Shown here: positions 980-53,318 of the stretch, piece after piece | Numbering within the stretch: the first letter of the stretch is position 1 | Layout: each line of letters begins with the position of its first letter | From: Xanthomonas sacchari | Lineage (GTDB): Bacteria > Pseudomonadota > Gammaproteobacteria > Xanthomonadales > Xanthomonadaceae | Assembly (NCBI RefSeq): GCF_040529065.1 | Contig: NZ_CP132343.1 | Location: 496,001 to 560,000 of the forward strand | DNA length: 64,000 bases | Direction of reading: 5' to 3' | Program-made: the position numbers and the translations under genes | The notes under the pieces: model-generated | The model's database searches: none | What the model was told of the DNA's origin: nothing | The model's input: the letters and a program-made list of their open reading frames with translations, nothing else

Positions 980-2455
980 TTGATTACCCGCGAGCAGTTC
1001 CAGCGCTACGCCGCTGAAGGTCACACCCGCATCCCCGTCGTCCGCGAAGTGCTGTCCGACCTGGACACGCCGCTGTCGGTCTATCTCAAGCTCGCCGACG
1101 CCCCGCACACCTATCTGTTCGAATCGGTCGAAGGCGGCGAACGTTTCGGGCGCTACTCGATCATCGGCCTGCCGGTGCGCCGCGTGTACACCTTCCGTGG
1201 GCACACCCTGGACGTGCGCGACCATGGCGAGCTGATCGAGCGCCGCGAGGTCGCCGATCCCTTCGCCGAGGTCGAGGCGCTGCGTGCCCAGCATGTGGTG
1301 CCCAAGCTGGCGGGCGTGCCCGGCTTCACCGGTGGCCTGGTCGGCTGGTTCGGCTTCGAATGCATCGGCTACATCGAGCCGCGCCTGGCCGGCGCCGTCG
1401 CCCGCGACGAGCTGGACACCCCGGACATCCTGCTGATGCTGTCCGAGGAAGTGGCGGTCTTCGACAACCTCAAGGGCCGCCTGTACCTGATCGTGCATGC
1501 CGACCCAGCCGAGGCCGACGCCTGGGAACGCGCGCAGGCGCGCCTGGATGCGCTCACCACCACGCTGCGCCAGCCCGGCGCCGGCTACCCCGCGCCGCTG
1601 GCGCGCGATGTGCTGGACGAGAGCGACTTCGTCTCCGGCTTCACCCGCGAGGGCTTCATCGCCGCAGTGGAGAAATCCAAGGACTACATCCGTGCCGGCG
1701 ACATCTTCCAGGTGGTGCTGAGCCAGCGCCTGAGCGTGCCGTTCGCCGCGCGCCCGGTGGACGTGTACCGCGCGCTGCGCGCATTGAACCCGTCGCCGTA
1801 CATGTATTTCCTCGACGTCGGCGACACCCAGGTGGTCGGCTCCTCGCCGGAGATCCTGGTGCGGCTGGAGAACGGCCAGGTCACCGTGCGCCCGATCGCC
1901 GGCACCCGGCCGCGCGGCAAGACCCCGGAAGAGGATCAGGCGCTGGAGGCGGAACTGCTCGCCGATCCGAAGGAGCGCGCCGAGCACCTGATGCTGATCG
2001 ACCTGGGTCGCAACGATGCCGGCCGGGTCTCGCAGGCCGGCAGCGTCGCCGTCGGCGAGCGCTTCGTGATCGAACGCTACAGCCATGTCATGCACATCGT
2101 CAGCGAAGTCACCGGCACCCTGCTGCCCGGCCTCAGCTACGCCGACGTGCTGCGCGCCACTTTCCCCGCCGGCACCGTCAGCGGCGCGCCGAAGATCCGC
2201 GCGCTGGAAGTCATTCGCGAGCTGGAGCCGATCAAGCGCAACGTCTACGCCGGCAGCATCGGCTACATCGGCTGGCACGGCGACGCCGATACCGCCATCG
2301 CCATCCGCACCGCCGTGATCAAGCACGGCCGCCTGCACGTGCAGGCCGGCGCCGGCATCGTCTACGACTCCGACCCGCAGACCGAATGGGACGAGACCAT
2401 GAACAAGGGCCGCGCGCTGTTTCGCGCGGTCGCCGAAGCGGCGAAGGGGCTGTGA
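980..2455 (+). CDS. trpE: Anthranilate synthase component I
   Basis: Converts chorismate plus glutamine-derived ammonia to anthranilate, the first committed step of tryptophan synthesis; partner of TrpG (7910-8491). 491 aa from a TTG start preceded by GGAAGGAAA at 966-974, which fits better than the longer open frame from 914. The N-terminal domain carries YLFESVEGGERFGRYS (tryptophan-binding region, equivalent of the LLES feedback motif). The C-terminal chorismate-binding domain carries VLSQRLS, IAGTRPRGKTPEED, LIDLGRNDAGRV and PAGTVSGAPKIRA. The stop overlaps the GTG start of the next gene, implying translational coupling. A cluster of three Trp codons lies upstream at 919-930 (see findings). 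Confidence 0.97.
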   Translation: MITREQFQRYAAEGHTRIPVVREVLSDLDTPLSVYLKLADAPHTYLFESVEGGERFGRYSIIGLPVRRVYTFRGHTLDVRDHGELIERREVADPFAEVEALRAQHVVPKLAGVPGFTGGLVGWFGFECIGYIEPRLAGAVARDELDTPDILLMLSEEVAVFDNLKGRLYLIVHADPAEADAWERAQARLDALTTTLRQPGAGYPAPLARDVLDESDFVSGFTREGFIAAVEKSKDYIRAGDIFQVVLSQRLSVPFAARPVDVYRALRALNPSPYMYFLDVGDTQVVGSSPEILVRLENGQVTVRPIAGTRPRGKTPEEDQALEAELLADPKERAEHLMLIDLGRNDAGRVSQAGSVAVGERFVIERYSHVMHIVSEVTGTLLPGLSYADVLRATFPAGTVSGAPKIRALEVIRELEPIKRNVYAGSIGYIGWHGDADTAIAIRTAVIKHGRLHVQAGAGIVYDSDPQTEWDETMNKGRALFRAVAEAAKGL

Positions 2456-3522
2456 GCGCCGCCGCGCCGCGGATCGGCTTCCGCAACGACTACAGCGAAG
2501 GCGCGCATCCGCGCCTGCTCGCCGCCCTGGCCACCGCCAGCGCCGAGCAGAATGCCGGCTACGGCCTGGACCGGCACAGCGCGCGCGCCGCCGAACTGAT
2601 CCGTGCCGAGATCGGCTGCGCCGACGCCGATGTGCACCTGCTGGTTGGCGGCACCCAGACCAACCTCACCGCCATCGCCGCGTTCCTGCGTCCGCACCAG
2701 GCGGTGATCGCTGCGGTCTGCGGCCACATCGCCACCCACGAGACCGGCGCGATCGAGGCCACAGGGCACAAGGTGCTCACCGTGGACGCGGCCGACGGCC
2801 GGCTCACGCCGGAGCGGATCGCGCCGTTGCTGGCCGAGCACGGCAACGAGCACCTGGTGCAGCCGCGGCTGGTCTACGTGTCCAACACCACCGAGGTCGG
2901 CACGATTTACCGCAAGCACGAACTGCAGGCCTTGCGCGTGTTCTGCGACGCGCACGGCCTGATGCTGTTCCTGGACGGCGCGCGCATCGGCAGCGCGCTC
3001 ACCGCCGACGGCAACGACCTGCGCATGGCCGACATCGCCGCGCTCACCGATGCGTTCTATATCGGCGGCACGAAGAATGGTGCGCTGCTCGGCGAGGCGT
3101 TGGTGATCCTCCATCCGGCCTTAAAGGCGGATTTCCGCTATCTGCTCAAGCAACGCGGCGCACTGCTGGCCAAGGGCATGGTGCTGGGCACGCAGTTCGC
3201 CGCGCTGTTCGAGGACGGCCTGTTCTACGAACTGGCCGCGCACGCCAACCGCATGGCCACGCGGTTGCGCGACGGGTTGGCCGCCGCCGGTGCGCAGTTC
3301 GCCTCGGATTCGCCGACCAACCAGCTGTTCGTGATCCTGCCTGCCGCCGCGGTCGAGACGCTGGCGCAGCGCTACGACTTCGAGCGCTGGCAACTGCTGG
3401 GCGACGGCCGCTGGGTGATCCGCTTCGTCACTTCGTGGGCGACGCAGGACGCGGCGGTCGATGCACTGATCGCGGATTTCGCCACGCTGCTCCACTCCGG
3501 CACGCAGCGTGCGGCCGGCTGA
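2452..3522 (+). CDS. Low-specificity threonine aldolase family protein (PLP)
   Basis: 356 aa from a GTG that overlaps the trpE stop (GTGA at 2452-2455); the open frame continues upstream only as a shadow of trpE. A fold-type I PLP enzyme of the beta-eliminating lyase/threonine aldolase group, cleaving L-threonine or allo-threonine to glycine and acetaldehyde. Visible features are the start FRNDYSEGAHP, the G-GTQTN phosphate-binding loop (LLVGGTQTNLTA), LDGARIGSAL, and the PLP lysine in YIGGTKNGALLGEA. The overlap with trpE suggests translation from the same mRNA, although the enzyme is not part of tryptophan synthesis. Substrate specificity cannot be read from sequence. Confidence 0.9.
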   Translation: MSAAAPRIGFRNDYSEGAHPRLLAALATASAEQNAGYGLDRHSARAAELIRAEIGCADADVHLLVGGTQTNLTAIAAFLRPHQAVIAAVCGHIATHETGAIEATGHKVLTVDAADGRLTPERIAPLLAEHGNEHLVQPRLVYVSNTTEVGTIYRKHELQALRVFCDAHGLMLFLDGARIGSALTADGNDLRMADIAALTDAFYIGGTKNGALLGEALVILHPALKADFRYLLKQRGALLAKGMVLGTQFAALFEDGLFYELAAHANRMATRLRDGLAAAGAQFASDSPTNQLFVILPAAAVETLAQRYDFERWQLLGDGRWVIRFVTSWATQDAAVDALIADFATLLHSGTQRAAG

Positions 3523-3543
3523 CATACCCCCAAGGAGAGGAAG

Positions 3544-4311
3544 ATGAAAATCCGTACGCTTGTTGCCTGGGCCGTTGCCGCAGCGCTGGCCTTGCCGGCC
3601 GTCGCCGGTGCGCAGGTCAACAGCCTGCCGTCGCAGCCGCATCTGTTGGTGAAGGGGGAGGCTGAGCGCGAGGTGGTGCCGGATCGCTTCGGTCTGACAA
3701 TCACCCTAAGCGCCGTGGATGCCGACCCGGGTGCGGCGCGTAAGCGTGTGCAGTCCAATGCCGAAAAGGTGCTGGCCGCGTTCGCACAGCGCCACGCGCT
3801 GGCAGGCAGCGTGCAGGCCACGACGCTGTCGATCGCACCCGAGCGTCGCTACCAAGAAGGCAAGCAGCTGTTCGAAGGCACGCGCGTGCAGCGCACGCTC
3901 TCCGCCGACTTCGCCGCATTGGGCGATGTACGCGCTTTGCTGGGCACATTGGCCACAAGCGAGGAAGTGCAGGTGTCGGGGATCGCGCCGCGTTACAGCG
4001 GCGAAGCCGCGCTGCGTGCCGAGCTCAAGCGCCAGGCGGCCGAGCAGACCCGCAGCTCCGCGCAATCCCTGGCCAAGGCCTATGGCGTGCGTCTGGGCGG
4101 CCTGTACACCATCTCCGAGGTGGCACCGAACTTCGCGTATGGCATCCAAGCCGGACGCTGGCCGTCCGAGTCGGTCTCGATGCAATTGGTGAGTGCGCCA
4201 GCCCCGCCTTCTGCATTTGGGTATGCCGCATCGCCCGCCGCCGAATCCCTCGAAGCCGGCAGCCTCACCCTCTCCGAAAACGTCTATGCGGTCTTCCTGA
4301 TCGCGCAATGA
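3544..4311 (+). CDS. SIMPL domain (DUF541) periplasmic protein
   Basis: 255 aa, with a clear signal peptide (MKIRTLVAWAVAAALALPAVAGAQ) and a GGAG-like RBS (AAGGAGAGG at 3532-3540). The mature part has the SIMPL/DUF541 layout: an early VKGEAEREVVPDRFGLTITL strand, a central helix-rich part and a C-terminal LSENVYAVFLI strand. Family members are periplasmic or outer-membrane-associated, with poorly defined roles, some linked to oxidative stress. It starts 21 bp after the threonine aldolase and probably shares its transcript. Function not assigned beyond family. Confidence 0.85.
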   Translation: MKIRTLVAWAVAAALALPAVAGAQVNSLPSQPHLLVKGEAEREVVPDRFGLTITLSAVDADPGAARKRVQSNAEKVLAAFAQRHALAGSVQATTLSIAPERRYQEGKQLFEGTRVQRTLSADFAALGDVRALLGTLATSEEVQVSGIAPRYSGEAALRAELKRQAAEQTRSSAQSLAKAYGVRLGGLYTISEVAPNFAYGIQAGRWPSESVSMQLVSAPAPPSAFGYAASPAAESLEAGSLTLSENVYAVFLIAQ

Positions 4312-4404
4312 GTCCTTCGCCATGCGGTGCGCGGCGGACACCGACGCAGTTCGCCGGCTGATCCGCCCGGCGCGCGCGATGGCACCCAGGCATGAGCCCG
4401 TCGC

Positions 4405-5187
4405 TCACCGCGCCACGTCGCGTGCCGCGCGGTCGATGAAATCGGCGACCACCTGCGGGTGCGACACCAGCGACAGGTGGCTCGACGCCAGATGCTGGAC
4501 CTGGGCACCGATGTCGTGCGCCAGTTGCCGCTGCACCGTCGGCGGCAGGGCGTGATCCTTGTCGGTGACCAGATACCAACTGGGCTTGCTGCGCCATGCC
4601 GCATGCGACACCCTGTCGGCGAAGGCGCGCGCGGCGATGGGCTGCTGCGTGGCGGCGAGCACACGCACCTTGTCCATCGGCACATCGCCCGCCATGACGG
4701 TTCGAAAGGCGGTCGGCGCGTCGAGCCACAGCCATCCGTCCGCATCGGGCGTCAGGCCGTCCATGGGTGCGTGCAGCCGGGTCAGCAGGTCGGCGACCGA
4801 TTCGTTGCTGTCGGGCACGAGGGCGGACAGATAGACCAGGCCGCGGACGTTGTCGGCATTGCCGGCTTCGGTGATGACCGCGCCTGCCCAGGAGTGCCCG
4901 ACGAGCAGAACAGGTCCGCGCTGCCGCGCCAGCACGCGGCGGGTTGCGGCGACGTCGTCGGCCAGCGAGGTCAGCGGGTTCTGCACGGCCGTCACGTGGT
5001 AGCCCTTGCGCTGTAGTCGCCGTACGACCTCCGCCCAGCTCGATCCGTCGACGAATGCGCCGTGCACCAGCACGATGTTCGGCACGGCACCGCGGAGCGT
5101 CTCGGCCCGGCTTGATCGCGGAAACACACTGGCAGCGAGCACGCCGGCGACCGCAAGGCCCGCAAGAAGCTTGGTGGGGAACGCCAT
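4405..5187 (-). CDS. Exported alpha/beta hydrolase
   Basis: 260 aa. N-terminal signal-like segment (MAFPTKLLAGLAVAGVLAASVFPRSSRA), then an alpha/beta hydrolase core: IVLVHGAFVDGSSW (oxyanion HG), the nucleophile elbow GHSWAG, and a C-terminal SHLSLVSHPQVVADFI with the catalytic-His region. Related to the esterase/EstC group often annotated simply as alpha/beta fold hydrolase. It is the last gene of the azoR-yciI-hydrolase operon (21 bp after the YciI gene), divergent from the LysR gene at 6319, which probably controls it. Natural substrate unknown. Confidence 0.85.
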   Translation of the reverse strand: MAFPTKLLAGLAVAGVLAASVFPRSSRAETLRGAVPNIVLVHGAFVDGSSWAEVVRRLQRKGYHVTAVQNPLTSLADDVAATRRVLARQRGPVLLVGHSWAGAVITEAGNADNVRGLVYLSALVPDSNESVADLLTRLHAPMDGLTPDADGWLWLDAPTAFRTVMAGDVPMDKVRVLAATQQPIAARAFADRVSHAAWRSKPSWYLVTDKDHALPPTVQRQLAHDIGAQVQHLASSHLSLVSHPQVVADFIDRAARDVAR

Positions 5188-7526: not shown

Positions 7527-7909
7527 AAGCGGCGCACCCCTGCGGTCCATGACTGCACGATCGCCGCCCTGACCGGTGGCGGCTTCCCTCGGCTCCCGGC
7601 ATGGCGGCTCCCAACGAAGGAGAGTTGTCTTGTCCCCCACCAGATCCACGCCTCCCATGCCTGCCGCGCGTCACGGCGCCTGCCCGGTTTCCCGCGTCTG
7701 CGGAGCCGGCGCCTCCCGCCACGGATCGGTGGCATCCATGCGTGAGGACCGAACCGCTCCTGGTGCTGTCGTTGCGGGTGCTGCGCGGCAACGATGGCGG
7801 GCGCGAACGATGCTGCGGTTGCGCCGCACCCAGCCATCGCGCGTCAGTGCTGCACGCGGATCGGCTTTCTCTCTCCAAGACATGCAATGAAAATCAATGA
7901 GTTAAGTCG

Positions 7910-8491
7910 ATGACCGTCTTGATGCTGGATAACTACGACAGCTTTACCTACAACCTCGTGCAGTACCTGCAGGCGCTCGGCGCCGAGGTCAAGGTGGTGC
8001 GCAACGATGCGCTCAGCGTGGACGAGATCGAGCGCCTGGCGCCCGAGCGCATCGTCATCTCGCCGGGGCCGTGCACGCCGAACGAGGCGGGGGTGTCGCT
8101 GCAACTGATCGAGCGGCTGGGCGAGCGCACGCCGATCCTGGGCGTGTGCCTGGGCCACCAGAGCATCGGCCAGGTCTACGGCGGGCAGGTGGTGCGTGCC
8201 GGCACCATCATGCACGGCAAGACCTCGCGCATCCGCCACGAAGGCCGCGGCGTGTTCGCCGGCCTGCCGGACCGCTACGAGGCCACCCGCTACCACTCGC
8301 TGGTGGTGGAGAAGACCACGCTGCCCGACTGCCTGGAAGTGACGGCCTGGACCGAACACGACGACGGCACGGTGGAGGAGATCATGGGTCTGCGCCATCG
8401 CCAGTTCCCGGTCGAGGGCGTGCAGTTCCATCCCGAGTCCATCCTTACCGAGCATGGTCACGCCCTGCTGAAGAACTTCCTGGAGCGCTGA
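7910..8491 (+). CDS. trpG: Anthranilate synthase component II (glutamine amidotransferase)
   Basis: 193 aa, class I glutamine amidotransferase supplying ammonia to TrpE. Catalytic nucleophile Cys80 in GVCLGHQ and the His174-x-Glu176 pair in QFHPESI are intact; the N-terminus [17 protein letters not shown] is typical. It is 5.4 kb from trpE rather than adjacent, as in other Xanthomonas. Begins the trpG-flavin reductase-trpD-trpC-HAD series. Being alone of its kind in the window, it may also serve aminodeoxychorismate synthase (PabA role); that is inference. Confidence 0.96.
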
Positions 8492-8540
8492 GCGCGCCGC
8501 GCCGGCGTCGCCCACTTCCCGTCACTGCCGGATCCTGCCG

Positions 8541-9179
8541 ATGCACGAGCGCACCGACGCCTTCCATTTCTACGAACCGGCCAATGGCCACGGCTTGCCG
8601 CACGACCCGTTCAACGCCATCGTCGGGCCGCGGCCGATCGGCTGGATCGGTTCGCGCGGCGCCGACGGCGTCGCCAACCTGGCGCCCTACAGTTTCTTCA
8701 ACGCCTTCAACTACGTCCCGCCGATCGTCGGCTTTGCCAGCATCGGCTGGAAGGACAGCGTGCGTAACATCGAGGCCACGGGCGAGTTCACCTGGAACCT
8801 GGCCACGCGGCCGCTGGCCGAGGCGATGAACGCCAGTTCCGCCGCGGTGGCGCCGGAGGTGGACGAGTTCGCGCTGGCCGGCCTGACTGCTGCGCCGTCG
8901 CGCCTGATCGCGGCGCCGCGGGTGGCCGCCAGCCCGGTCAGCTTCGAATGCCGGCTCAGCCAGTTACTGCCGCTGCAGAGCGCACGCGGCGAGCCGATCC
9001 AGACATGGCTGGTGCTGGGCGAGGTGGTCGGCGTGCACATCGCCGAGCATGCCCTGCAGGACGGCATCTACGACCCGGCTGCGGTCGCCACCCTGCTGCG
9101 CGCCGGCGGCCCGGCCGACTACTTCGAGGTGCTGGCGCAAGGGCGCCTGCGCATGCCGCGGCCGACGCCTCCGCGCTGA
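8541..9179 (+). CDS. Flavin reductase-like domain protein
   Basis: 212 aa, FMN-binding split-barrel flavin-reductase-like domain. Segments include PFNAIVGPRPIGWIGSRGADGVANLAPYS, SFFNAFNYVPPIVGFAS and the HIAEHALQDG late region typical of the DIM6/NTAB group. Members bind FMN and some supply reduced flavin to oxygenases; the partner is unknown here. Placed between trpG and trpD with 49 and 47 bp gaps, so probably in the same transcript without an evident role in tryptophan synthesis. Confidence 0.88.
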   Translation: MHERTDAFHFYEPANGHGLPHDPFNAIVGPRPIGWIGSRGADGVANLAPYSFFNAFNYVPPIVGFASIGWKDSVRNIEATGEFTWNLATRPLAEAMNASSAAVAPEVDEFALAGLTAAPSRLIAAPRVAASPVSFECRLSQLLPLQSARGEPIQTWLVLGEVVGVHIAEHALQDGIYDPAAVATLLRAGGPADYFEVLAQGRLRMPRPTPPR

Positions 9180-9226
9180 CTCGCGCCGCCTTTTCCTCAT
9201 TCGCCTAACCGCAGACCGTCTTCGCC

Positions 9227-10264
9227 ATGACCATCACCCCCCAGCAAGCCCTGCAACGCACCATCGAGCACCGCGAGATCTTCCACGACGAGATGGTCGG
9301 GCTGATGCGGCAGATCATGCGCGGCGAGGTCTCGCCGATGATGACCGCGGCCATCCTCACCGGCTTGCGGGTCAAGAAGGAAACGGTCGGCGAGATCGCC
9401 GGCGCGGCGCTGGTGATGCGCGAGTTCTCGCGCACCGTGCCGGTTGCCGACCGCACCCACATGGTCGACATCGTCGGCACCGGCGGCGACGGCTCGCACA
9501 CCTTCAATATCTCCACCTGCGCGATGTTCGTCGCCGCGGCGGCCGGTGCCAAGGTCGCCAAGCACGGCAACCGCAGCGTCTCCTCCAAGTCCGGCAGCGC
9601 CGACGCGCTGGAGGCGCTGGGCGCGGCGATCGAGTTGCAGCCCGAGCAGGTGGCGCAGGCGCTGGCGGCCACTGGCATCGGCTTCATGTTCGCGCCGGTG
9701 CACCATCCGGCGATGAAGGTGGTGGCGCCGGTGCGGCGCGAGATGGGCGTGCGCACCATCTTCAACATCCTCGGTCCGCTGACCAATCCGGCCGGTGCGC
9801 CGAACATCCTGATGGGCGTGTTCCACCCCGACCTGGTCGGCATCCAGGCACGCGTGCTGCAGGAACTGGGCGCCGAGCGCGCGCTGGTGGTGTGGGGTCG
9901 CGACGACATGGACGAGCTCTCGCTCGGCGCCGGCACCCTGGTCGGCGAACTGCGCGACGGCCAGGTCCGCGAGTACGAAGTGCACCCGGAGGACTTCGGC
10001 ATCGCCATGTCGGCCAGCCGCAACCTCAAGGTCGCCGACGCCGCCGAATCGATGGCGATGCTGCGCGCCGTGCTCGACAACGTGCCCGGCCCGGCGCTGG
10101 ACATCGTCGCCTTCAACGCCGGCGCCGCGCTGTACGTGGCCGGCCTGGCTGCCGACATCGGTGCCGGCATCGCCCTGGCGCGCGCGGCCATCGCCGACGG
10201 CCGCGCGCGGGCCAAGCTGGAGGCCTACGTGGCCTGCACCCGCGGCCTGGTCGGGCTGGACTGA
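9227..10264 (+). CDS. trpD: Anthranilate phosphoribosyltransferase
   Basis: 345 aa, transfers the phosphoribosyl group of PRPP to anthranilate. Family motifs: [17 protein letters not shown] (PRPP diphosphate loop), [21 protein letters not shown], and [30 protein letters not shown]. Length is normal for the family. Followed by trpC after 87 bp. Confidence 0.97.
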
Positions 10265-44616: not shown

Positions 44617-44943
44617 GGGGCAGGGCGGGGGCAGCGGAACGGGCCGCCATTGTAGGCGCTGAGGCCCGGCGACGCCCGGCCGGCGCGCGTGCCGGACGCG
44701 CGGATCGTGCCGATGCGCCCCGGTCGGGGCGATCGCGCCGAGGGCGAGCGCCCGTGCGTAGCAGCGCTTCGGCGCCGCAGACGCTGCGCGACAATCCGCC
44801 GCGCGTCGACGACGCACACCGTTGCCTGTGCCGCTGCGCGCGCCGCCTGCCTTGGGCATCGTGGGTTGCGCGCCATCGCGCGCGCCGCCGCTGCGATGCA
44901 TTAGGCTGTCGCCGCCCCCGCCCTCGCCGCCAGGACCACGCGC

Positions 44944-45558
44944 GTGTCGATCTATGCCCTCAAAGGACGTTTCCAGGACCTGCTGCGGCCCGGCGTGCGG
45001 GTGCTGTACCGGCTCGGCGTCACCGCCAATCAGGTGACCGCGGCCGCGGCGCTGGTGTCGCTGCTGGTCGCCGCGCTGGTCTATGCGCAAGGCGCGGCGC
45101 AGCCGCTGTGGTACGCGCTGCTGCCGCTGTGGATGCTGCTGCGGATGGCCTTGAACGCGGTGGACGGCATGCTGGCGCGCGAGTTCGGCCAGCAGTCGCG
45201 GCTGGGCGCCTACCTCAACGAACTGTGCGACGTGGTCGCCGATGCGGCGCTGTACCTGAGCCTGCTCGGCGTGCCCGGCGTCGGTGCCGGCTGGTTGTGG
45301 CTGATGGCGCTGACCGCGGCGTTGACCGAATATGCCGGCGTGCTCGGGCTGATGGTCGGCGCCAGCCGTCGCTACGATGGGCCGATGGGCAAGAGCGACC
45401 GTGCCTTCGTCGTCGGGCTGATCGGCGTGCTGCTGGCCGGCGCCTGGATCGGCGCGGCCACGGTCACGGCCATCGCCATGGCCGTGGCGCTGTTGTGCGC
45501 GGCGACCGTGCTGCGCCGGGTCGCGGCGGGATTGCGCGAGGCGGCTGCGCGCGCGTGA
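44944..45558 (+). CDS. ynbA: CDP-alcohol phosphatidyltransferase, YnbA type
   Basis: 204 aa from GTG at 44944, with several TM helices. Matches E. coli YnbA along its length ([17 protein letters not shown], then LGVTANQVT, and [12 protein letters not shown] near residue 140). The CDP-alcohol motif reads NAVDGMLAR, then x8-G-x3-N-x3-D: Asn stands at the D1 and D3 metal-ligand positions. The family joins a CDP-activated lipid to an alcohol, but this subfamily is uncharacterised and the substitutions leave activity uncertain. First gene of an eight-gene operon of phospholipid-type enzymes. Confidence 0.85.
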
Positions 45559-45624
45559 GCGGGGGCGCGGCCGATGCGGCCGCGGGACACAGTGGATTCA
45601 CGGCAGACAGGACATCGGCAACGG

Positions 45625-47379
45625 ATGCGGCAGGTCAACGAAAGCGAATTCGTCAGTTTCGACGGCACACGGTTGTTCTACCGGCACTGGCCGGCCACCG
45701 CGCCGGTGGCACCGCCCAGGGCGATCGTGCTGCTGCATCGCGGCCACGAACATTCCGGGCGGGTCGCGCATCTGGCCGAGGAACTGGGCCTGGACGACTG
45801 CGCGGTGTTCGCGTGGGATGCGCGCGGCAACGGCCGCTCGCCCGGCGCGCGCGGCGATGCCCCCGGCTTCCCGGCGCTGGTGCGCGACCTGGACCGCTTC
45901 GTCGCGCACATCGGCGAGGTCCACGGCGTCGCCGTGCAGGACATTGTGGTGATCGCGCAGAGCGTGGGGGCGGTGGTCGCCAGCACCTGGGTGCACGACT
46001 ACGCGCCGCCGCTGCGCGCGCTGGTGCTGGCCTCGCCGGCGTTCAAGGTCAAGCTGTACGTGCCGTTCGCGCGGCCCGGGCTGGCCCTGATGCAGACGCT
46101 GCGCGGCAATTTTTTCGTCAACAGCTACGTCAAGCCGCAGTGGCTGACCCACGACCCGGCGCGGGTCGAGAGCTACCGCACTGATCCGCTGATCACCCGG
46201 CCGATCTCGGTGCGGGTGCTGCTGGGCCTGTACGCGGCGGCCGACCGCGTGGTCGGCGATGCGCAGGCGATCACCGTGCCGGTGCAGTTGCTGGTGTCCG
46301 GCAGCGATTTCGTGGTGCACCGCGGGCCGCAGGACCGCTTCTACGAGCGCCTGTCCTCGCCGGTGAAGGAGCGCCACCTGCTGCCCGGTTTCTTCCACGA
46401 CACCCTGGGCGAGCGCGACCGCGCACCGGCGCTGGCGCAGATCCGCCGCTTCGTGCGCGATCGCTTCGCCGAGGTGCCGGCGCTGCCCAGCCTGCGCCAC
46501 GCGCACCGCCGCGGGCCGACCTTCGAGGAAGCCGAGCGCCTGGCCTGGCCGCCGCAGCGCTACAGCCTGCAGGACCTGCGCTGGCGCGGCGTGCGCGCTG
46601 GGCTGCGCCTGGGCGGACAGCTCTCCGAAGGCATTGCCCTCGGCCTGCAGACCGGCTTCGATTCCGGCAGCACGCTGGACTACATCTACCGCGACCAGGC
46701 GGCCGGGCGCGGCCCGCTGGGGCGGATGATCGACCGCAACTACTTGGATGCGATCGGCTGGCGCGGCATCCGCGTGCGCCGCCAGCATCTCCACGAACTG
46801 TTGGGCCTGGCGATGCAGCGGCTGCGCGCCGCGGGCCTGCCGGTGCGCGCGCTGGACATCGCCGCCGGCCACGGCCGCTACGTGCTGGAAGCGCTGGCCG
46901 GCGGCAGCCAGCGCGCCGATGCGATCCTGCTGCGCGATTTCAGCCCGTTGAACGTGGAGCAGGGCCGCGCGCTGATTGCCGCACTCGGCGCCACCGATAT
47001 CGCCCGCTTCGAGCAGGGCGACGCCTTCGACCGCGACGCGTTGGCGGCGTTGCAGCCGCGGCCGACGCTGGCCGTGGTGTCGGGTCTGTACGAGCTGTTC
47101 CCGGACAACGACCAGGTGCTGCGCTCGCTGCAGGGCGTGGCTGCGGCGGTAGAGCCGGGCGGCTACCTGGCCTACACCGGCCAGCCCTGGCATCCGCAGC
47201 TGGAATTCATCGCCCGTGCGCTGACCAGCCACCGCGGCGGTGCGGCCTGGGTGATGCGCCGGCGCACCCAGCAGGAGATGGATGAACTGGTGCGCACGGC
47301 CGGCTTCCGCAAGCTGGAGCAGCGCATCGACGAGTGGGGCATCTTCACCGTGTCGCTGGCGCAGCGGATCGCGCCATGA
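45625..47379 (+). CDS. ynbC: Bifunctional alpha/beta hydrolase / SAM methyltransferase, YnbC type
   Basis: 584 aa from ATG at 45625. N-terminal monoacylglycerol-lipase-like hydrolase (IVLLHRGHEHSGRVAHL, FAWDARGNGRSPG, nucleophile S113 in VVIAQSVGAVVA, then KVKLYVPFARPGLAL), C-terminal class I methyltransferase with the SAM loop LDIAAGHGRYVLEAL near residue 410. Same two-domain arrangement and length as E. coli YnbC. Likely acts on a lipid head group or acyl chain; substrate unknown. 66 bp after ynbA and overlapping ynbD by ATGA. Confidence 0.9.
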   Translation: MRQVNESEFVSFDGTRLFYRHWPATAPVAPPRAIVLLHRGHEHSGRVAHLAEELGLDDCAVFAWDARGNGRSPGARGDAPGFPALVRDLDRFVAHIGEVHGVAVQDIVVIAQSVGAVVASTWVHDYAPPLRALVLASPAFKVKLYVPFARPGLALMQTLRGNFFVNSYVKPQWLTHDPARVESYRTDPLITRPISVRVLLGLYAAADRVVGDAQAITVPVQLLVSGSDFVVHRGPQDRFYERLSSPVKERHLLPGFFHDTLGERDRAPALAQIRRFVRDRFAEVPALPSLRHAHRRGPTFEEAERLAWPPQRYSLQDLRWRGVRAGLRLGGQLSEGIALGLQTGFDSGSTLDYIYRDQAAGRGPLGRMIDRNYLDAIGWRGIRVRRQHLHELLGLAMQRLRAAGLPVRALDIAAGHGRYVLEALAGGSQRADAILLRDFSPLNVEQGRALIAALGATDIARFEQGDAFDRDALAALQPRPTLAVVSGLYELFPDNDQVLRSLQGVAAAVEPGGYLAYTGQPWHPQLEFIARALTSHRGGAAWVMRRRTQQEMDELVRTAGFRKLEQRIDEWGIFTVSLAQRIAP

Positions 47380-48713
47380 GCATGGCGGCCGCGCGGCCGT
47401 GGCGGCGTGCGCTGGCCTGGCTGGCGCTGCTGGGGCCGTTCTTCTTCCTCAGCTACGGCCTGGCCAACACCCTGGCCGCGCGCCGTGCCGAGGTGCCGTC
47501 GTTGCCGTTCGCCTGGGAAAGCCACATCCCGTTCTGGCCGTGGACCATCGTCCCGTACTGGTCGATCGACCTGTTCTACGTGATCTCGTTCTTCGTCTGC
47601 CGCACGCGCGCCGAGCTGGACACGCATGCGCGGCGCCTGCTCACCGCGCAACTGCTGGCGGTGGCTTGCTTCCTGCTGTGGCCGCTGCGCTTTGGCTTCG
47701 AACGGCCGCCGACCGAGGGCGTGTTCGGCTGGCTGTTCGCGGTGCTGCTCGGCTTCGACAAGCCGTTCAACCAGGCGCCGTCGCTGCACATCGTGCTGCT
47801 GGTGGTGCTGTGGGTGCGCTATGCGCAGCACCTGCACGGGCTGGCGCGGTGGGCCCTGCACGGCTGGTTCGCGCTGATCGGGTTATCGGTGCTGACCACC
47901 TACCAGCATCACTTCCTCGACGTGCCCACCGGCCTGGCCGCGGGCTGGCTCTGCGTGTGGCTGTGGCCGGAGCGCATCGCCGCGCCGTGGCGGGCCGCGG
48001 CGCCGGCGCGCGATCCGCGGCGCTGGCGCCTGGCTGCGCTGTACCTGCTCGGCAGCGCGGCCTGCGCGGCTGCCGCGCGCGCGCTCGGTGGCGCCGGCTG
48101 GTGGCTGCTGTGGCCGGCGCTGTCGCTGCTGCTGGTCGCGCTCAGTTATGCGCTGCTCGGCCCGCTGGGCCTGCAGAAACGTGACGATGGCCGCCTGAGC
48201 CTGGCCGCCCGCTGGCTGTATGCGCCGTACCTGGCCGCTGCCTGGCTCAACTCGCGCGCCTGGACCTGGCGCGATCCGGCGCCGCGCGCGATCGTCGACG
48301 GCGTCTGGCTCGGGCGCCTGCCCGGTCGCGGCGAGCGCACGCGTTTCGCCGCGGTGGTCGATGTCAGTGCGGAACTGTCGTTGCGCGAGGCGCAGGCGCA
48401 CGACCGCGTGGTGCCGATGCTGGACCTGGTGGCGCCGCCGGCCGCGGCCTTGCGCATGGCCGCCGACGCGATCGAAGCGGCGCGCGCACACGGCCACGTG
48501 CTGGCCTGCTGCGCGCTGGGCTATTCGCGCAGCGCGGCAGCAGTGGCTACCTGGCTGCTGCGCAGCGGCCGCGCCACCAGCGTGGACGAGGCGCTGGCGC
48601 TGTTGCGAGCGCACGCGCCACGGATCGTGCTGGGACCGGCGCAGCGTGCCGCCATCGCCGCCGCCTGCACCACATCACCGGCGCTGCTGCAGGCGCAGGA
48701 GCTGCCGGCATGA
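47376..48713 (+). CDS. ynbD: PAP2 / dual-specificity phosphatase fusion, YnbD type
   Basis: 445 aa from ATG at 47376 (overlaps ynbC stop). An N-terminal PAP2-like membrane domain with SLHIV (H138) and YQHHFLDVPTG (H178-x3-D182), more hydrophobic helices, and a C-terminal dual-specificity/tyrosine-phosphatase loop CCALGYSRSA (C379, R385). The same fusion occurs in E. coli YnbD. It could dephosphorylate a phosphatidyl-alcohol phosphate or lipid phosphate made by the operon. Overlaps the next gene by ATGA. Confidence 0.9.
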   Translation: MSMAAARPWRRALAWLALLGPFFFLSYGLANTLAARRAEVPSLPFAWESHIPFWPWTIVPYWSIDLFYVISFFVCRTRAELDTHARRLLTAQLLAVACFLLWPLRFGFERPPTEGVFGWLFAVLLGFDKPFNQAPSLHIVLLVVLWVRYAQHLHGLARWALHGWFALIGLSVLTTYQHHFLDVPTGLAAGWLCVWLWPERIAAPWRAAAPARDPRRWRLAALYLLGSAACAAAARALGGAGWWLLWPALSLLLVALSYALLGPLGLQKRDDGRLSLAARWLYAPYLAAAWLNSRAWTWRDPAPRAIVDGVWLGRLPGRGERTRFAAVVDVSAELSLREAQAHDRVVPMLDLVAPPAAALRMAADAIEAARAHGHVLACCALGYSRSAAAVATWLLRSGRATSVDEALALLRAHAPRIVLGPAQRAAIAAACTTSPALLQAQELPA

Positions 48714-49159
48714 GCACGCCGCTGGAACTGCGCACGATGGCGGCGGTGTTGCGCCAGGCCGCGCCACTGGATCGGCTGTCGCTGCTGCTGCTCGCGGTCA
48801 GCGTGCTGCTGGCGGCGTGGTATGCCGGCACCGGTGCCGTCCTCGCCGTGTCCTGCTGTGGCGTCGCCGCGTTGGCCGGCCTGCTGCAGCGCTACTGGGC
48901 GGCGCGGGTCGGCCTGGACGTGGCGTTGCTTGAGGCAGTGCTGGCCGAACCGGACCTGCAGCGCGCCGGCGCCGACCTGGACGCGGCTCTGCAGCGGCTG
49001 AGCCTGTTGCGCACGCCGCCGCCGCCGCGCGACTGGCTGGCGCGCTGGCAGGGCATGCGCCGCCTGTTGCGGCGGCAGCTGCTGTGTTTCGCCCTGCAGG
49101 TTCTGTCACTGCTGCTGGCGCTGTGCACGGCGCCAGCGGGCTGGGAAGCGCTGCGATGA
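48710..49159 (+). CDS. Small membrane protein of the ynb-type operon
   Basis: 149 aa. Two N-terminal TM segments (about 24-60: LSLLLLAVSVLLAAWYAG and VLAVSCCGVAALAGLL), a helical cytoplasmic stretch and a C-terminal TM (LLCFALQVLSLLLALC). No family recognised. Overlaps both neighbours by ATGA, so it is translated with them; its fixed place before the TIGR04222 gene suggests a partner of that protein. Confidence 0.78.
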   Translation: MSTPLELRTMAAVLRQAAPLDRLSLLLLAVSVLLAAWYAGTGAVLAVSCCGVAALAGLLQRYWAARVGLDVALLEAVLAEPDLQRAGADLDAALQRLSLLRTPPPPRDWLARWQGMRRLLRRQLLCFALQVLSLLLALCTAPAGWEALR

Positions 49160-50637
49160 CGCGAACGCCGACGCCGCTGCTGCCGGCCAGCGTCGATCCC
49201 GATCACGCGGCGCTGTGGCAGCGCCTGCAGGCCGATGGCTTCGGCGAGGGCGACGCGGCGTTGCCGGCGTTCGAGCGCCGCGTCGCTGAGGAGGCCAGCG
49301 TGTCGCTGGCGCTGGCCGCGCACCTGGTCGAGGAATACCGGCGCTTCTGCTTCCTGGCCTGCGTCGCCGGCGAGGAGATCACGCCGAGTCCGCTGGTCGA
49401 CCAGGCCTGGCATGCGCACCTCACCGACACCCGCGAATACTGGCAGCGGTTCTGTCCGCAGGTGCTGCGCCGCACCCTGCACCACCAGCCCGGGCGCGGC
49501 GATCCGGCCGACGCTGCGCGTTTCCAGGCCCAGTACGCGGCCACCCTGGCGCAGTACCGGCACTACTTCGGCGAGCCGCCGGCGGCGTGCTGGCCGGCGC
49601 CGGCCGGCACGCGTCCATCCGTGCCGGCACCGCGCCAGGCCGGCGCGCGCCGCAGCGCGCCGGCGCGTGCCGGCGTCGCCGTGTGGGGCTGGATGCTGGG
49701 TGTTGCCCTGCTGTTCGCGGTGCTCTGGCAACGCCACGGTCCGCTGTCGCCGCTGCACTGGCCCGGACCGCCGTTTCTGCTGCTGTTCCTGGCCGGCATC
49801 GGCCTGGCCTGGAGCCTGGGCGCGCGTCTGCGCCTGGCCGTGCGCGGATTGCGCCGCGCCGTGCTCGACACGCCGCTCGACGCCACCGAACTGGCCTATC
49901 TGGCCGGCGGCAGCGAGCGCGTCGCCGACCAGCAACTGGCCCTGTTGCTCGCGGCCGGCGCTGTACGTCTGCACGCGGAGCCGCACGTGCGCCGCCAGGC
50001 GCGGCTGCAGCCCACCACGGTCGCGGTACCACCGGCGCTGCAACGCGCGCTCGCGATCGTGCGCGCGCACCCGCAGTTGCAGCAGGCGCTGGCCGCGTTG
50101 CAGCGCGATGCCGCGCCGCTGCGCCGGGCACTGGTCGCCAAGGGGCTATGGCTGGGCCATGGGCAGGCGCTGTGCGCGCGCCTGTTCGGCGCCGCGCCGT
50201 TGCTGGCGCTGTGGACCCTGGGCGTGATGAAGTTGCGGATCGGCCTGCAGTTGCAGCGTCCGGTCGGCTTCCTGGTGGCGGCGATGGTGGTGGTCAGCGT
50301 CGTTGCGCTCGGTTTCCTGCTCACGCCGCCGCGGCGCAGCGTCGCCGGCGACGCCTTGCTGGCCGACCGCGAGGCGGCCTGGCGCGATGGCGTCGCCGCG
50401 CCCTCGCTGGCGCCCGGTTCGCACCTGGCGCTGCCGCTGGCCCTGGCCCTGGCCCTGGCCGGGACCAGCGTGCTGATGACCACGCCCTGGGCCGACTATC
50501 ACGCCTTGCGTGCGCCCGCAGCCAACGGCCGCGGCGGCAGCTGTTCGACCAGCAACTGCGGTGGGGGCGGCGGCGGCAGCGACGGCGGCAGCAGTTGCGG
50601 CGGCGGTGGCTGCGGCGGCTGTGGAGGCGGCGACTGA
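49156..50637 (+). CDS. TIGR04222-type membrane protein with Gly/Cys-rich tail
   Basis: 493 aa from ATG at 49156. Residues 20-145 resemble the domain of glycine-rich-domain-like proteins (EYRRFCFLACVAGEEITPSPLVDQAWHAHL). Then come two TM helices (about 175-220), a soluble LDATELAYLAGGSERVADQQLALLL segment characteristic of TIGR04222, two more TMs near 375-400 and one at 430-450, and a 34-residue tail made almost only of Gly, Ser and Cys (about seven Cys). Function unknown. Such tails may bind metal or be modified; neither is shown. Confidence 0.78.
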   Translation: MTRTPTPLLPASVDPDHAALWQRLQADGFGEGDAALPAFERRVAEEASVSLALAAHLVEEYRRFCFLACVAGEEITPSPLVDQAWHAHLTDTREYWQRFCPQVLRRTLHHQPGRGDPADAARFQAQYAATLAQYRHYFGEPPAACWPAPAGTRPSVPAPRQAGARRSAPARAGVAVWGWMLGVALLFAVLWQRHGPLSPLHWPGPPFLLLFLAGIGLAWSLGARLRLAVRGLRRAVLDTPLDATELAYLAGGSERVADQQLALLLAAGAVRLHAEPHVRRQARLQPTTVAVPPALQRALAIVRAHPQLQQALAALQRDAAPLRRALVAKGLWLGHGQALCARLFGAAPLLALWTLGVMKLRIGLQLQRPVGFLVAAMVVVSVVALGFLLTPPRRSVAGDALLADREAAWRDGVAAPSLAPGSHLALPLALALALAGTSVLMTTPWADYHALRAPAANGRGGSCSTSNCGGGGGGSDGGSSCGGGGCGGCGGGD

Positions 50638-51290
50638 TGGCCGGTTCGACCTGGCAGGCGCGGCGCGCGCAGTGGCGTGCGCGGCTGGCGCTGGCGTTGC
50701 GCGCGCGCGGGGCCACGCCCAACGGCGTGTCCTGGAGCGGACTGGCGTGCGCGGTGCTGGCGGCGCTGATGTTCGCCCTGGCCTGGCGCGAGCCGCCGGC
50801 CAACGCCGCCGCGTTGCTGGTGCTGGCGGCGCTGGCGCTGCAGGCGCGGCTGCTGTGCAACCGCCTGGACGGCTTGATGGCGCAGCAGGCGCAGATGATC
50901 GGCCGCGCCGGCGCGGTGTACAACGAGGCGCCGGACCGGCTGTCGGACGTGGCGGTGTGCCTGGGTGTGGGCTATGGCCTGCAGCCGGTGCTGGGCATCG
51001 GCGCGGAACTGGGCTGGGCCGCCGCCCTGCTGTGCGTGGGCACCGCCTATGTGCGCATGCTCGGCCTGGCCTGCGCGGTGCGCGAACCGCTGCAGGGGCC
51101 GATGGCGCGCGCGCAGCGCATGCATTGGTTGTCGCTGGCCGCGTTGCTGGCGGCGGCCGCGCTGCTGCTGCAACACGTGGTACTGGCCCGCACGATCCTT
51201 GCCGTGGCGCTGGCGTTGCTGATCGCCGCCGCCGCCCTGACCATCGTGATCCGCGTGCGCGCCATCGTGCGCGAACTGGAGTGGAAATGA
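50637..51290 (+). CDS. Second CDP-alcohol phosphatidyltransferase-like protein
   Basis: 217 aa from ATG at 50637, overlapping the previous stop (TGATG). The motif NRLDGLMAQ-x8-G-x3-N-x3-D (residues 75-100) has Asn at D1 and D3 like the YnbA-type protein, and additionally Gln83 where the family has Arg. Five or six TM helices. The repeated loss of acidic ligands suggests altered chemistry or a non-catalytic role. Paralogue of the first gene of the operon, but distant. Confidence 0.82.
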   Translation: MAGSTWQARRAQWRARLALALRARGATPNGVSWSGLACAVLAALMFALAWREPPANAAALLVLAALALQARLLCNRLDGLMAQQAQMIGRAGAVYNEAPDRLSDVAVCLGVGYGLQPVLGIGAELGWAAALLCVGTAYVRMLGLACAVREPLQGPMARAQRMHWLSLAALLAAAALLLQHVVLARTILAVALALLIAAAALTIVIRVRAIVRELEWK

Positions 51291-51919
51291 TCGAACGCCT
51301 GATCGCCCGCGGCTGCAGTGCCGCGATCCGTCTGCTCACCGGCGCACGCGCGCTGTGGCGCGGCTGCATGCCGTCCAGCGAACGCCGGGTGTACTACGGC
51401 AACCACGCCAGCCACGGCGATTTCGTGCTGATCTGGTCGTCGCTGCCGGCGCCGCTGCGACGCGAGGTGCGGCCGGTGGCGGCGGCCGACTACTGGCAGC
51501 GCGATGCGCTGCGCCGCTACCTGATCCACGCGGTGTTCAACGGCGTGCTGATCGAGCGCGACCCGCAGCAGCGCCAGCGCGATCCGATCGCCTGCCTGTG
51601 CGAGGCGGTCGACGCCGGCGGCTCGTTGATCCTGTTTCCGGAAGGCACCCGCAACACCGAGGACGGCCTGCTGCCGTTCAAGAGCGGGCTCTATCACCTG
51701 GCGCGGCAGCGTCCGGAACTGGAGTTCGTGCCGGTGTGGATCGACAACCTCAAGCGGGTGATGCCCAAGGGCAAGTGGTTGCCGTTGCCGTTGCTGTGCA
51801 CCACCACCTTCGGCGAACCGCTGCGACTGGGCGCCGGCGAGGACAAGCAGGCCTTCCTCGATCGCGCGCGTGCGGCCTTGCTGGCCTTGGCGCCGGAGCA
51901 GGCGGAGGCGGCCCGATGA
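51287..51919 (+). CDS. Lysophospholipid (1-acylglycerol-3-phosphate) acyltransferase-like
   Basis: 210 aa from ATG at 51287 (ATGA overlap). PlsC-type motifs YGNHASHGDFVLI (HX4D), FPEGTRNTEDG (FPEGTR) and FVPVWIDNLKRVMPKG. Would acylate a lysophospholipid or related acceptor at the inner membrane. Gives the operon its own acyl transferase in addition to the YnbA-D set. Confidence 0.92.
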   Translation: MIERLIARGCSAAIRLLTGARALWRGCMPSSERRVYYGNHASHGDFVLIWSSLPAPLRREVRPVAAADYWQRDALRRYLIHAVFNGVLIERDPQQRQRDPIACLCEAVDAGGSLILFPEGTRNTEDGLLPFKSGLYHLARQRPELEFVPVWIDNLKRVMPKGKWLPLPLLCTTTFGEPLRLGAGEDKQAFLDRARAALLALAPEQAEAAR

Positions 51920-52890
51920 ATCCGATCGCGCTGAGCGAACACCTGCAGCAATCCTCGCTGCGGCAACAGACGGTGTGGCTGTTTCTTGGCATCGCCACGG
52001 TGCTGGTGGTGGCCACGCTGATCGCCGAGACCCTGCGCTGGCGCGCACGCGGACGGCCCAGCGCGGTGCTGGACAACCTGGTGGCGCGGATCCGCGCGTG
52101 GTGGGTGATGGCCGGGGTGGTGGCGCTGGCGTTCGCCTTCGGCCGGCTCGGCGTGATCGTGCTGTTCGCGCTGGTGTCGCTGTTCGCGCTGCGCGAGTTC
52201 ATCACCCTCACCCCGACCCGGCGCGGCGACTACTACGCGCTGCTGGCCGCGTTCTACGTGGTGCTGCCGTGGCAGTACTGGCTGGTGTGGAGCGACTGGT
52301 ACGGCCTGTACACGCTGCTGATCCCGGTCTACGCGTTCCTGGTGCTGCCGATCCTGGCGACCATCGGCGGCGACACCACGCGCTACCTGGAACGTACCGC
52401 CAAGGTGCAATGGGGGCTGATGATCTGCGTGTTCTGCATCTCGCATGTGCCGGCGCTGCTGAACCTGCGCATCCCCGGCTACGAGGACCGCAACCTGCTG
52501 CTGTTCGCGTTTCTGGTGATCGTGGTGCAGTCCTCGGACGTGCTGCAGTACGTGTGGGGCAAGCTGCTGGGCCGGCACCTGATCGCGCCGAAGCTGTCGC
52601 CGTCCAAGACCGTGGAAGGCTTCGTCGGCGGCATCCTCTCGGCAAGCCTGCTCGGCGCGGCGCTGTGGTGGATCACCCCGTTCTCGCCGCTGCAGGCATT
52701 CGCGCTGGCGCTGGTGGCCAACCTGATGGGCTTCTTCGGCGGCCTGGTGATGTCGGCGATCAAGCGCGACCGCGGCATCAAGGACTGGGGCCACATGATC
52801 GAAGGCCACGGCGGCGTGCTCGACCGATTGGATTCGGTGTGTTTTGCGGCGCCGGTATTCTTCCACCTGATCCGCTATGGGTGGGTGTGA
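51916..52890 (+). CDS. ynbB: CDP-diacylglycerol synthase-like protein, YnbB type
   Basis: 324 aa from ATG at 51916 (ATGA overlap), seven to eight TM helices. The CTP_transf_1 signature is complete: MSAIKRDRGIKDWGHMIEGHGGVLDRLDS. It ends FFHLIRYGWV, like E. coli YnbB. Makes CDP-lipid from phosphatidate and CTP, the substrate needed by the two transferases. It is not the housekeeping cdsA, which in this group sits with dxr/bamA. Last gene of the operon. Confidence 0.92.
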   Translation: MNPIALSEHLQQSSLRQQTVWLFLGIATVLVVATLIAETLRWRARGRPSAVLDNLVARIRAWWVMAGVVALAFAFGRLGVIVLFALVSLFALREFITLTPTRRGDYYALLAAFYVVLPWQYWLVWSDWYGLYTLLIPVYAFLVLPILATIGGDTTRYLERTAKVQWGLMICVFCISHVPALLNLRIPGYEDRNLLLFAFLVIVVQSSDVLQYVWGKLLGRHLIAPKLSPSKTVEGFVGGILSASLLGAALWWITPFSPLQAFALALVANLMGFFGGLVMSAIKRDRGIKDWGHMIEGHGGVLDRLDSVCFAAPVFFHLIRYGWV

Positions 52891-53187: not shown

Positions 53188-53269
53188 GAGGGCGATGTGC
53201 AGGCGCTACACGCTGGGTCGCTATGTGTGTCGGATCGCTTGACACTCACGTCATGCAGGACGGCACGAT

Positions 53270-53318
53270 CCGATTCCCGATTCCCGATTCCCGATTCCCG
53301 ATTCCCGATTCCCGATTC
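53270..53318 (-). repeat. Heptamer array, GGGAATC x7
   Basis: Seven perfect tandem CCGATTC units on the + strand (GAATCGG on the minus strand), 62 bp downstream of fis. Seven GGG tracts spaced by four bases. Confidence 0.97.

Follow-up and report, generated by a model that had tools for sequence, protein, structure and literature searches.

The closest described relative of the operon reported here is antagonism resistance cluster 1 of Pseudomonas aeruginosa, arc1A-F (PA2541-PA2536). Five of its six genes are described there as phospholipid-related, and four as resembling enzymes of phosphatidylglycerol synthesis. The cluster is induced by Gac/Rsm and needed under T6SS attack by B. thailandensis; its mutants are not impaired under heat, peroxide, salt or detergent stress, and the cluster could not be tied to one toxin (Ting et al., PMC8926400). 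In addition, arc1A helps to protect cells from the lipases TseL and Tle1 and is auxiliary to arc3A against V. cholerae (PMC12663445). Arc1-3 are named as Gac/Rsm targets in a preprint (PMC11888443), and a single RsmA site has been placed near the start of PA2541 (PMC4066749). PA2536 has been annotated as a cytidylyltransferase, PA2537 as an acyltransferase and PA2540 as a putative phospholipase (PMC8190622, PMC2246019, PMC5541441), in agreement with what the core gene order described below predicts.

In E. coli, overproduction of YnbB raises the level of MPIase, a glycolipid derived from CDP-diacylglycerol, but YnbB does not replace CdsA (PMC6362211). An earlier note on the present DNA treated the ynbABCD system as uncharacterised, a view that has to be revised: judged by the annotation in the literature and by the order of its genes, the six-gene form described below would correspond to arc1, for which phenotypes have been reported (PMC8926400, PMC12663445).

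Our analysis suggests that the operon is an Arc1-type (ynb-type) phospholipid operon into which two genes, T and A2, have been inserted, and that, by analogy with arc1, it may provide a dedicated route restoring or altering anionic phospholipid under envelope attack. We give this reading a probability of about two in three. No published description of the eight-gene form was found in a search of titles, abstract openings and passages, with subscription papers outside its range.

Layout of the operon and its six-gene core

The window, a stretch of 64,000 nucleotides from the 4.96 Mb genome of Xanthomonas sacchari, carries eight genes on the plus strand in the order A1-C-D-H-T-A2-P-B (Table 1). 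Six overlaps of 1-4 bases each join C through B, namely ATGA at C/D, D/H, H/T, A2/P and P/B and TGATG at T/A2, which confirms the gene order and the overlaps from ynbC onward given in the earlier note. A1 and C are separated by a gap of 66 bases, the start of C being taken at the in-frame ATG at 45625; a second in-frame ATG lies at 45574. All eight genes are under purifying selection, with dN/dS values of 0.03-0.50 in six comparisons.

Table 1. Features of the operon, numbered from the first letter of the window
Feature	Position	Strand	Remarks
TAGGCT, the conserved TARGCT element 5' of A1	44902..44907	+	possibly a -10 element
A1 (ynbA / Arc1A type), CDP-alcohol phosphatidyltransferase, 204 aa	44944..45558	+	GTG start; NxxDGxxAR...GxxxNxxxD motif
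C (ynbC type), alpha/beta hydrolase fused to class I methyltransferase	45625..47379	+	Pfam, sequence
D (ynbD type), PAP2_3-like membrane part (PSLH ... HHxxD) and dual-specificity phosphatase (CALGYSR)	47376..48713	+	
H, 149-aa membrane protein, member of the six-gene core	48710..49159	+	homologues right after D elsewhere
T (inserted), conserved N-terminal helical domain, TM helices, TIGR04222 domain	49156..50637	+	
Tail of T, Gly/Ser/Cys-rich, predicted disordered, ends GCGGCGGGD	50527..50634	+	alignment and pLDDT
A2 (inserted), second CDP-alcohol transferase-like protein, 217 aa	50637..51290	+	lineage of the A'-P-B cassettes
P, PlsC-type acyltransferase (HASHGD, FPEGTRN), core member	51287..51919	+	Pfam, NCBIfam
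B (ynbB type), CdsA-like CDP-diacylglycerol synthase	51916..52890	+	Pfam, NCBIfam

The Pfam matches were CDP-OH_P_transf for A1 (PF01066; 35.9 bits, cut-off 22), Methyltransf_20 (507 bits) and Hydrolase_4 (228 bits) for C, DSPc for D (37.8 bits, cut-off 33.5), Acyltransferase for P (57.7 bits) and CTP_transf_1 for B (235.7 bits), and T matched the NCBIfam model TIGR04222 with 93.2 bits (cut-off 43). The enzyme classes that had been proposed for activation, head-group transfer, acylation, dephosphorylation and methylation are thus borne out. H gave no domain match in Pfam or NCBIfam. D of the window had no Pfam match to PAP2 at E<=0.1, such a match being found in its relatives. A2 had no Pfam match at E<=0.1, PF01066 included; its NCBIfam matches were to models of the phosphatidylinositol-phosphate-synthase type, all below cut-off. 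Several motifs can be read in the sequences. P contains HX4D and FPEGTR, B the CdsA signature, C the motif of a Ser-Asp-His hydrolase besides a Gly-rich SAM motif, and D PSLH/HHxxD with CX5R. As a set they would permit acylation, CDP-diacylglycerol synthesis, phosphatidyl transfer and dephosphorylation, and in addition hydrolysis and methylation. The pattern PS[LM]H/HHxxD is kept in every D row aligned. A weak PADLOC defence hit of C (mads_2, 5e-6) was set aside as that of a generic methyltransferase.

When 398 genomes of Pseudomonadota were scanned for PF12147 (gene C), 27, including that of the window, were positive. The regions around the other 26, together with 40 further members of the family, were typed with profiles from the window genes, and the absence of a gene was judged within a stretch of 8 to 18 kb per locus. 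C, P and B without T were present in 38 loci, and T with C, P and B in 31 (27 of them distinct, window included); the remainder comprised 17 loci with A, P and B only, 36 with T only and five with C but an incomplete set. Among the 38 core loci without T, 36 carry all six core genes, and in 32 of the 38 these stand on one strand as A-C-D-H-P-B. The widespread unit is one of six genes: a CDP-alcohol transferase, a hydrolase/methyltransferase, a PAP2/phosphatase, a small membrane protein, a PlsC-type and a CdsA-like enzyme. All six are present and co-directional in the window, as in the Arc1 / ynb-type gene set. Homologues of H lie directly 3' of D in loci of the Pseudomonas family, Shinella, Burkholderia and Citrobacter. 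The genes called additional in the earlier note hence fall into two kinds, since the second transferase and the TIGR04222 gene are indeed inserted but the acyltransferase and the 149-aa gene, both present in 36 of the 38 core loci, belong to the core; four genes do literally lie between ynbD and ynbB, but two of them are normal operon members outside E. coli.

Within the family, an orthologue of YnbB (E<=1e-100) was found in 44 of 149 genomes, in 13 cases in an eight-gene and in 14 in a six-gene locus, the others being three-gene loci, four with an A of the ynbA type and 13 with a different transferase, A'. In these latter loci (L092-L104) C, D and H are absent from the stretch examined, and we regard the A'-P-B cassette that is present, judging by its genes, as a probable minimal phospholipid-synthesis unit with a transferase lineage of its own; in two of the loci (L092, L093) a partial C-like frame lies a few kb away. 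At the purH-fis site of another family member (L083) only A, P and B were found, C, D and H being missing.

The core set of genes is seen without T and A2 on annotated plasmids. The Shinella locus reads C-D-H-P-B with A divergent, and the Citrobacter (A-B-P-C-D-H) and Burkholderia (B,P / A-C-D-H) loci are rearranged. IncF plasmids of Citrobacter (L034) and E. coli (L038) carry rearranged forms of the operon; the E. coli plasmid is typed as conjugative, and in its copy D and H were not found and A is not annotated. The TIGR04222 part of T gave no tblastn match on plasmids.

All 27 eight-gene loci have a TARGCT element in the 80 nt or so upstream of the operon, where shuffling predicts 0.5, and 11 of 38 six-gene loci have one against an expectation of 0.9; as the rows are related, these counts overstate independence. 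It precedes conserved SIY codons by 44-65 nt in all 27 eight-gene loci. No match to a sigma-70-type promoter was found upstream. In the interval that separates the operon from fis, GATTCCC-type short direct repeats are present at positions 53265-53300 of the window.

Transferase motif and putative lipid route

The consensus of CDP-alcohol transferases, DxxDGxxAR...GxxxDxxxD, contains four aspartates, of which the first and third (D1 and D3) are metal ligands in solved enzymes. A1 departs from it, reading NxxDG...GxxxNxxxD, and the same N-D-N-D pattern is present in every ynbA-type protein aligned and in 13 of 13 A' proteins, whereas the canonical D-D-D-D is found in all three paralogues of the X. 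sacchari genome and in the solved enzyme 6h53. For A2 the 27 rows read N-D-N-D (14), N-D-S-D (7) or S-D-N-D (2), four not being registered by the pattern. As D1 and D3 are metal-ligand positions, the conserved Asn suggests altered metal use or an altered substrate, so that canonical chemistry is not assured.

Against the NCBIfam models of phosphatidylinositol-phosphate synthases, A1 scored 51.7 of the required 170 bits (NF045883) and 73.4 of 180 (NF040950), and A2 reached 38.7 and 47.4 bits, again below the cut-offs. That the best curated relatives of A1 are inositol-phosphate synthases and not PgsA is a point against a route of the phosphatidylglycerol type. Inositol-1-phosphate synthase (PF01658) is absent from the X. 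sacchari genome and was found in one of 19 genomes, with 6 of 14 control genomes positive. Home-made inositol is thus an unlikely head group, and inositol was lowered among the candidates.

In the proposed pathway, P would acylate a lysophosphatidate-like acceptor and B would make CDP-diacylglycerol, from which A1 would transfer the phosphatidyl group to a phosphorylated alcohol; this is presumably glycerol-3-phosphate or a different sugar phosphate, and less likely an inositol phosphate made by the cell itself. D would then strip the extra phosphate to leave a phosphatidylglycerol-like anionic lipid, the most economical guess for the product from the enzymes encoded. C might deacylate a damaged or lyso-lipid, methylate the product, or both; a simple route to phosphatidylglycerol leaves no room for methylation. 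After the arc1 phenotype in P. aeruginosa, the pathway may restore or alter anionic phospholipid during envelope attack and would in Xanthomonas have a protective role. A2, with a second acceptor specificity, and T would have been added as one module in Xanthomonas/Lysobacter, extending or sensing the output. Parts of the system may work without C, D and H, as 17 loci of the family show only A, P and B (13 with A') in the stretch examined. The earlier suggestion of a self-contained lipid route stands as regards a single operon, and a single lipid route appears plausible.

A different possibility is that the operon serves the ordinary working of the envelope by making an unusual lipid, a phosphatidyl-polyol that is methylated or modified in another way, the Pseudomonas phenotype being secondary to membrane composition. 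This would fit the conservation of C (77-79% between the window and seven Lysobacter loci), which is second only to that of B, its 507-bit methyltransferase match, the retention of A, B, C and D without H and P in E. coli K-12, and the best matches of A1 and A2 to inositol-phosphate synthase models. It is unlikely, however, because arc1 mutants fail under T6SS attack and not under heat, peroxide, salt or detergent and because arc1 is Gac/Rsm-induced (PMC8926400); the lack of an inositol-1-phosphate synthase in the X. sacchari genome also speaks against it.

Pairing, origin and possible roles of T and A2

T and A2 are the inserted genes and the new part of the operon, the other six forming the core. 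They are paired in all 27 distinct T-containing operons, and no A2-type transferase was found in the 38 core loci without T. The exact eight-gene order, for which a search in other genomes had been advised, is kept on one strand in 26 of the 27, so that it is not due to chance; in the 27th (L115) D is disrupted, its match covering 78%, and H was seen in profile typing but not called in the order count. The operons with T and A2 belong to Xanthomonas, Lysobacter and one further lineage and lie mostly at one purH-fis site: of the 26 eight-gene loci besides the window, all have purH upstream and 22 have fis downstream. Since purH also adjoins 8 of the 14 six-gene loci of the family, both forms sit at the same site. 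In a class-wide sample A2 was matched at E<=1e-12 in 5 of 274 genomes, that of the window included.

In a tree of 113 transferases A2 forms one group (support 94). This group joins the A' proteins of the three-gene cassettes with a support of 100, and the ynbA-type rows all stand apart from it (100). A2 thus has an origin separate from that of A1, and its derivation as a tandem duplicate of A1 was ruled out. In the B tree all 27 eight-gene rows fall into a set of 37 that also takes in nine rows from six-gene loci and one from a three-gene locus (99), and in the P tree 19 of the 27 fall into a set of 24 with five six-gene rows (99); P and B of the A' cassettes fall apart from these sets. The T tree places 17 eight-gene loci on one side and 13 T-only rows on the other (91/90), which is not decisive. 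One old gain of T and A2 followed by losses would be the simplest reading of these trees, and transfer at the shared purH-fis site may be an alternative origin.

Compared with seven loci of the genus Lysobacter (L075, L077, L078, L119, L124, L133, L159), the window genes showed identities of 83-86% for B, 77-79% for C, 76-79% for P, 70-71% for D, 67-72% for A1, 55-56% for A2, 41-42% for H and 38-43% for T. The closest named T loci are those of Xanthomonas sp. NCPPB 1128 (T 91%) and Xanthomonas sp. F10 (82%). In L115 and two further named Xanthomonas species single genes appear disrupted or changed, T being split over several frames in L129 and the CDP-alcohol motif of A2 being altered in L109.

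T and A2 could also be a passenger pair with a function of its own that merely uses the promoter of the operon. The core dispenses with them in 38 loci (36 with all six genes), T diverges faster than the core enzymes (38-43% against 83-86% for B), and 36 loci have T without core genes in the stretch examined. Against this, the pair is flanked by H and P in the window, its codons overlapping theirs, in an order kept in 26 of 27 loci, T and A2 are never separate in these 27, A2 belongs to the same class of pathway enzymes, and the 17 eight-gene T proteins lie on one side of the tree, although the last point is not decisive. The lack of co-conservation with the ynb genes that passengers would show was not observed, T and A2 occurring together in all 27 T-containing operons, and we consider the passenger explanation rather improbable. 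In Corticibacter populi (L152), C, D and H occupy 1252-5126 and T 7767-9444 on the other strand, about 2.6 kb off, with unrelated genes between H and T and no A, P or B match within 17 kb, a possible independent association of T with Arc1 genes outside the Lysobacteraceae.

The tail of T contains G485-C-G-G-C489, invariant in 30 of 30 sequences, and residues 458-493 have pLDDT values below 50 in the predicted structure. A subset of TIGR04222 proteins with a Ser/Gly/Cys tail has been proposed as substrates of MNIO enzymes (Antoine et al. 2025, PMC12452194), and T, which shares this domain and type of tail, might likewise be a precursor that an MNIO (PF05114) enzyme modifies on its Cys-rich tail, one such enzyme being encoded elsewhere in the X. 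sacchari genome. This is very doubtful, as 4 of the 13 eight-gene genomes checked lack a PF05114 match although their T has the GCGGC tail, and the sole match in the X. sacchari genome (C1:3333617) is not adjacent to T but more than 2 Mb from the operon (near C1:540.9-548.9 kb). When the neighbours of the 36 T-only loci were clustered, recurrent ones were mostly limited to sphingomonad loci, and an MNIO gene may be among these neighbours.

We also compared T with GOLPH3 / Vps74 (GPP34 family, PF05719), a eukaryotic phosphoinositide-binding Golgi protein. With eight GPP34 loci, one of them truncated (L184), the profile scores were 25.6, 14.9 (two-sequence set) and 26.8, four unrelated families giving 10.3-14.1. 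With wider sets T scored 29.5 against GPP34, 12 TIGR04222 domains from outside the family of X. sacchari scored 28.2, and for the wider T set the best among 60 controls with shuffled columns reached 15.7. PF05719 matched none of 30 T proteins at E<=0.1 and nothing in the X. sacchari genome, Foldseek gave nothing significant for the T structure against the PDB, and no GOLPH3 was returned at E<=1 when PDB sequences were searched with a profile of T. T may be distantly related to GOLPH3/GPP34; the likeness is weak, and we put the probability of this link below 20%. Its N-terminal domain, which we had presumed to resemble glycine-rich-domain proteins (PF07173), gave no Pfam match to that family. 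A further reading, which is highly improbable, makes A2 the writer and T the reader of a bacterial lipid within an operon for defence against antagonism: A2 with its altered Asn/Asn active site would make a phosphatidyl-polyol-phosphate, and T would bind it through a domain of distant GOLPH3 kinship and signal through its TM helices to the GCGGC tail.

Comparison with known systems

The present analysis ties an operon known mainly by its E. coli y-names to a published anti-antagonism cluster and defines its six-gene core. The occurrence of six or eight genes at one chromosomal site in related genomes offers a natural comparison for the product of the cluster, and the family-wide Asn replacements and the strict pairing of T with A2 are directly testable features.

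T differs from GOLPH3 / Vps74 by its TM helices and its Cys tail. It is like the TIGR04222 Cys-tail proteins of PMC12452194 in its domain, its membrane segments and its Ser/Gly/Cys tail; unlike them it stands in a phospholipid operon, has a conserved N-terminal helical domain and lacks an adjacent MNIO gene. The best curated relatives of A1 and A2 are the phosphatidylinositol-phosphate and archaetidylinositol-phosphate synthases, for which solved structures such as 6h53 exist, but both proteins stay below the curated cut-offs and carry Asn in place of D1 and D3, A2 having either Asn or Ser in the latter position.

E. coli K-12 ynbABCD contains homologues of A1 (49% identity to YnbA over 165 aa), B (38% to YnbB over 296 aa), C (57% to YnbC over 576 aa) and D (43% to YnbD over 425 aa) and has the same Asn-containing transferase motif. 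Its order A-B-C-D differs from the A-C-D-H-P-B core, and within 20 kb of the ynb genes there is no significant match to H, P or T and no second transferase.

The X. sacchari genome also encodes a DUF2339 protein, the family used for Arc3A (PMC8926400); as such proteins turned up in 20 of the 24 genomes searched, 19 of them above the cut-off, whether or not the operon was there, this co-residence says little. The arc1A-F genes are, as far as annotation goes, of the same kinds and in the same order as the six core genes, and six-gene loci also occur in the family that we take to be that of Pseudomonas (f7). The operons of Xanthomonas/Lysobacter differ from arc1 in carrying T and A2, which follow the small membrane gene and precede the acyltransferase.
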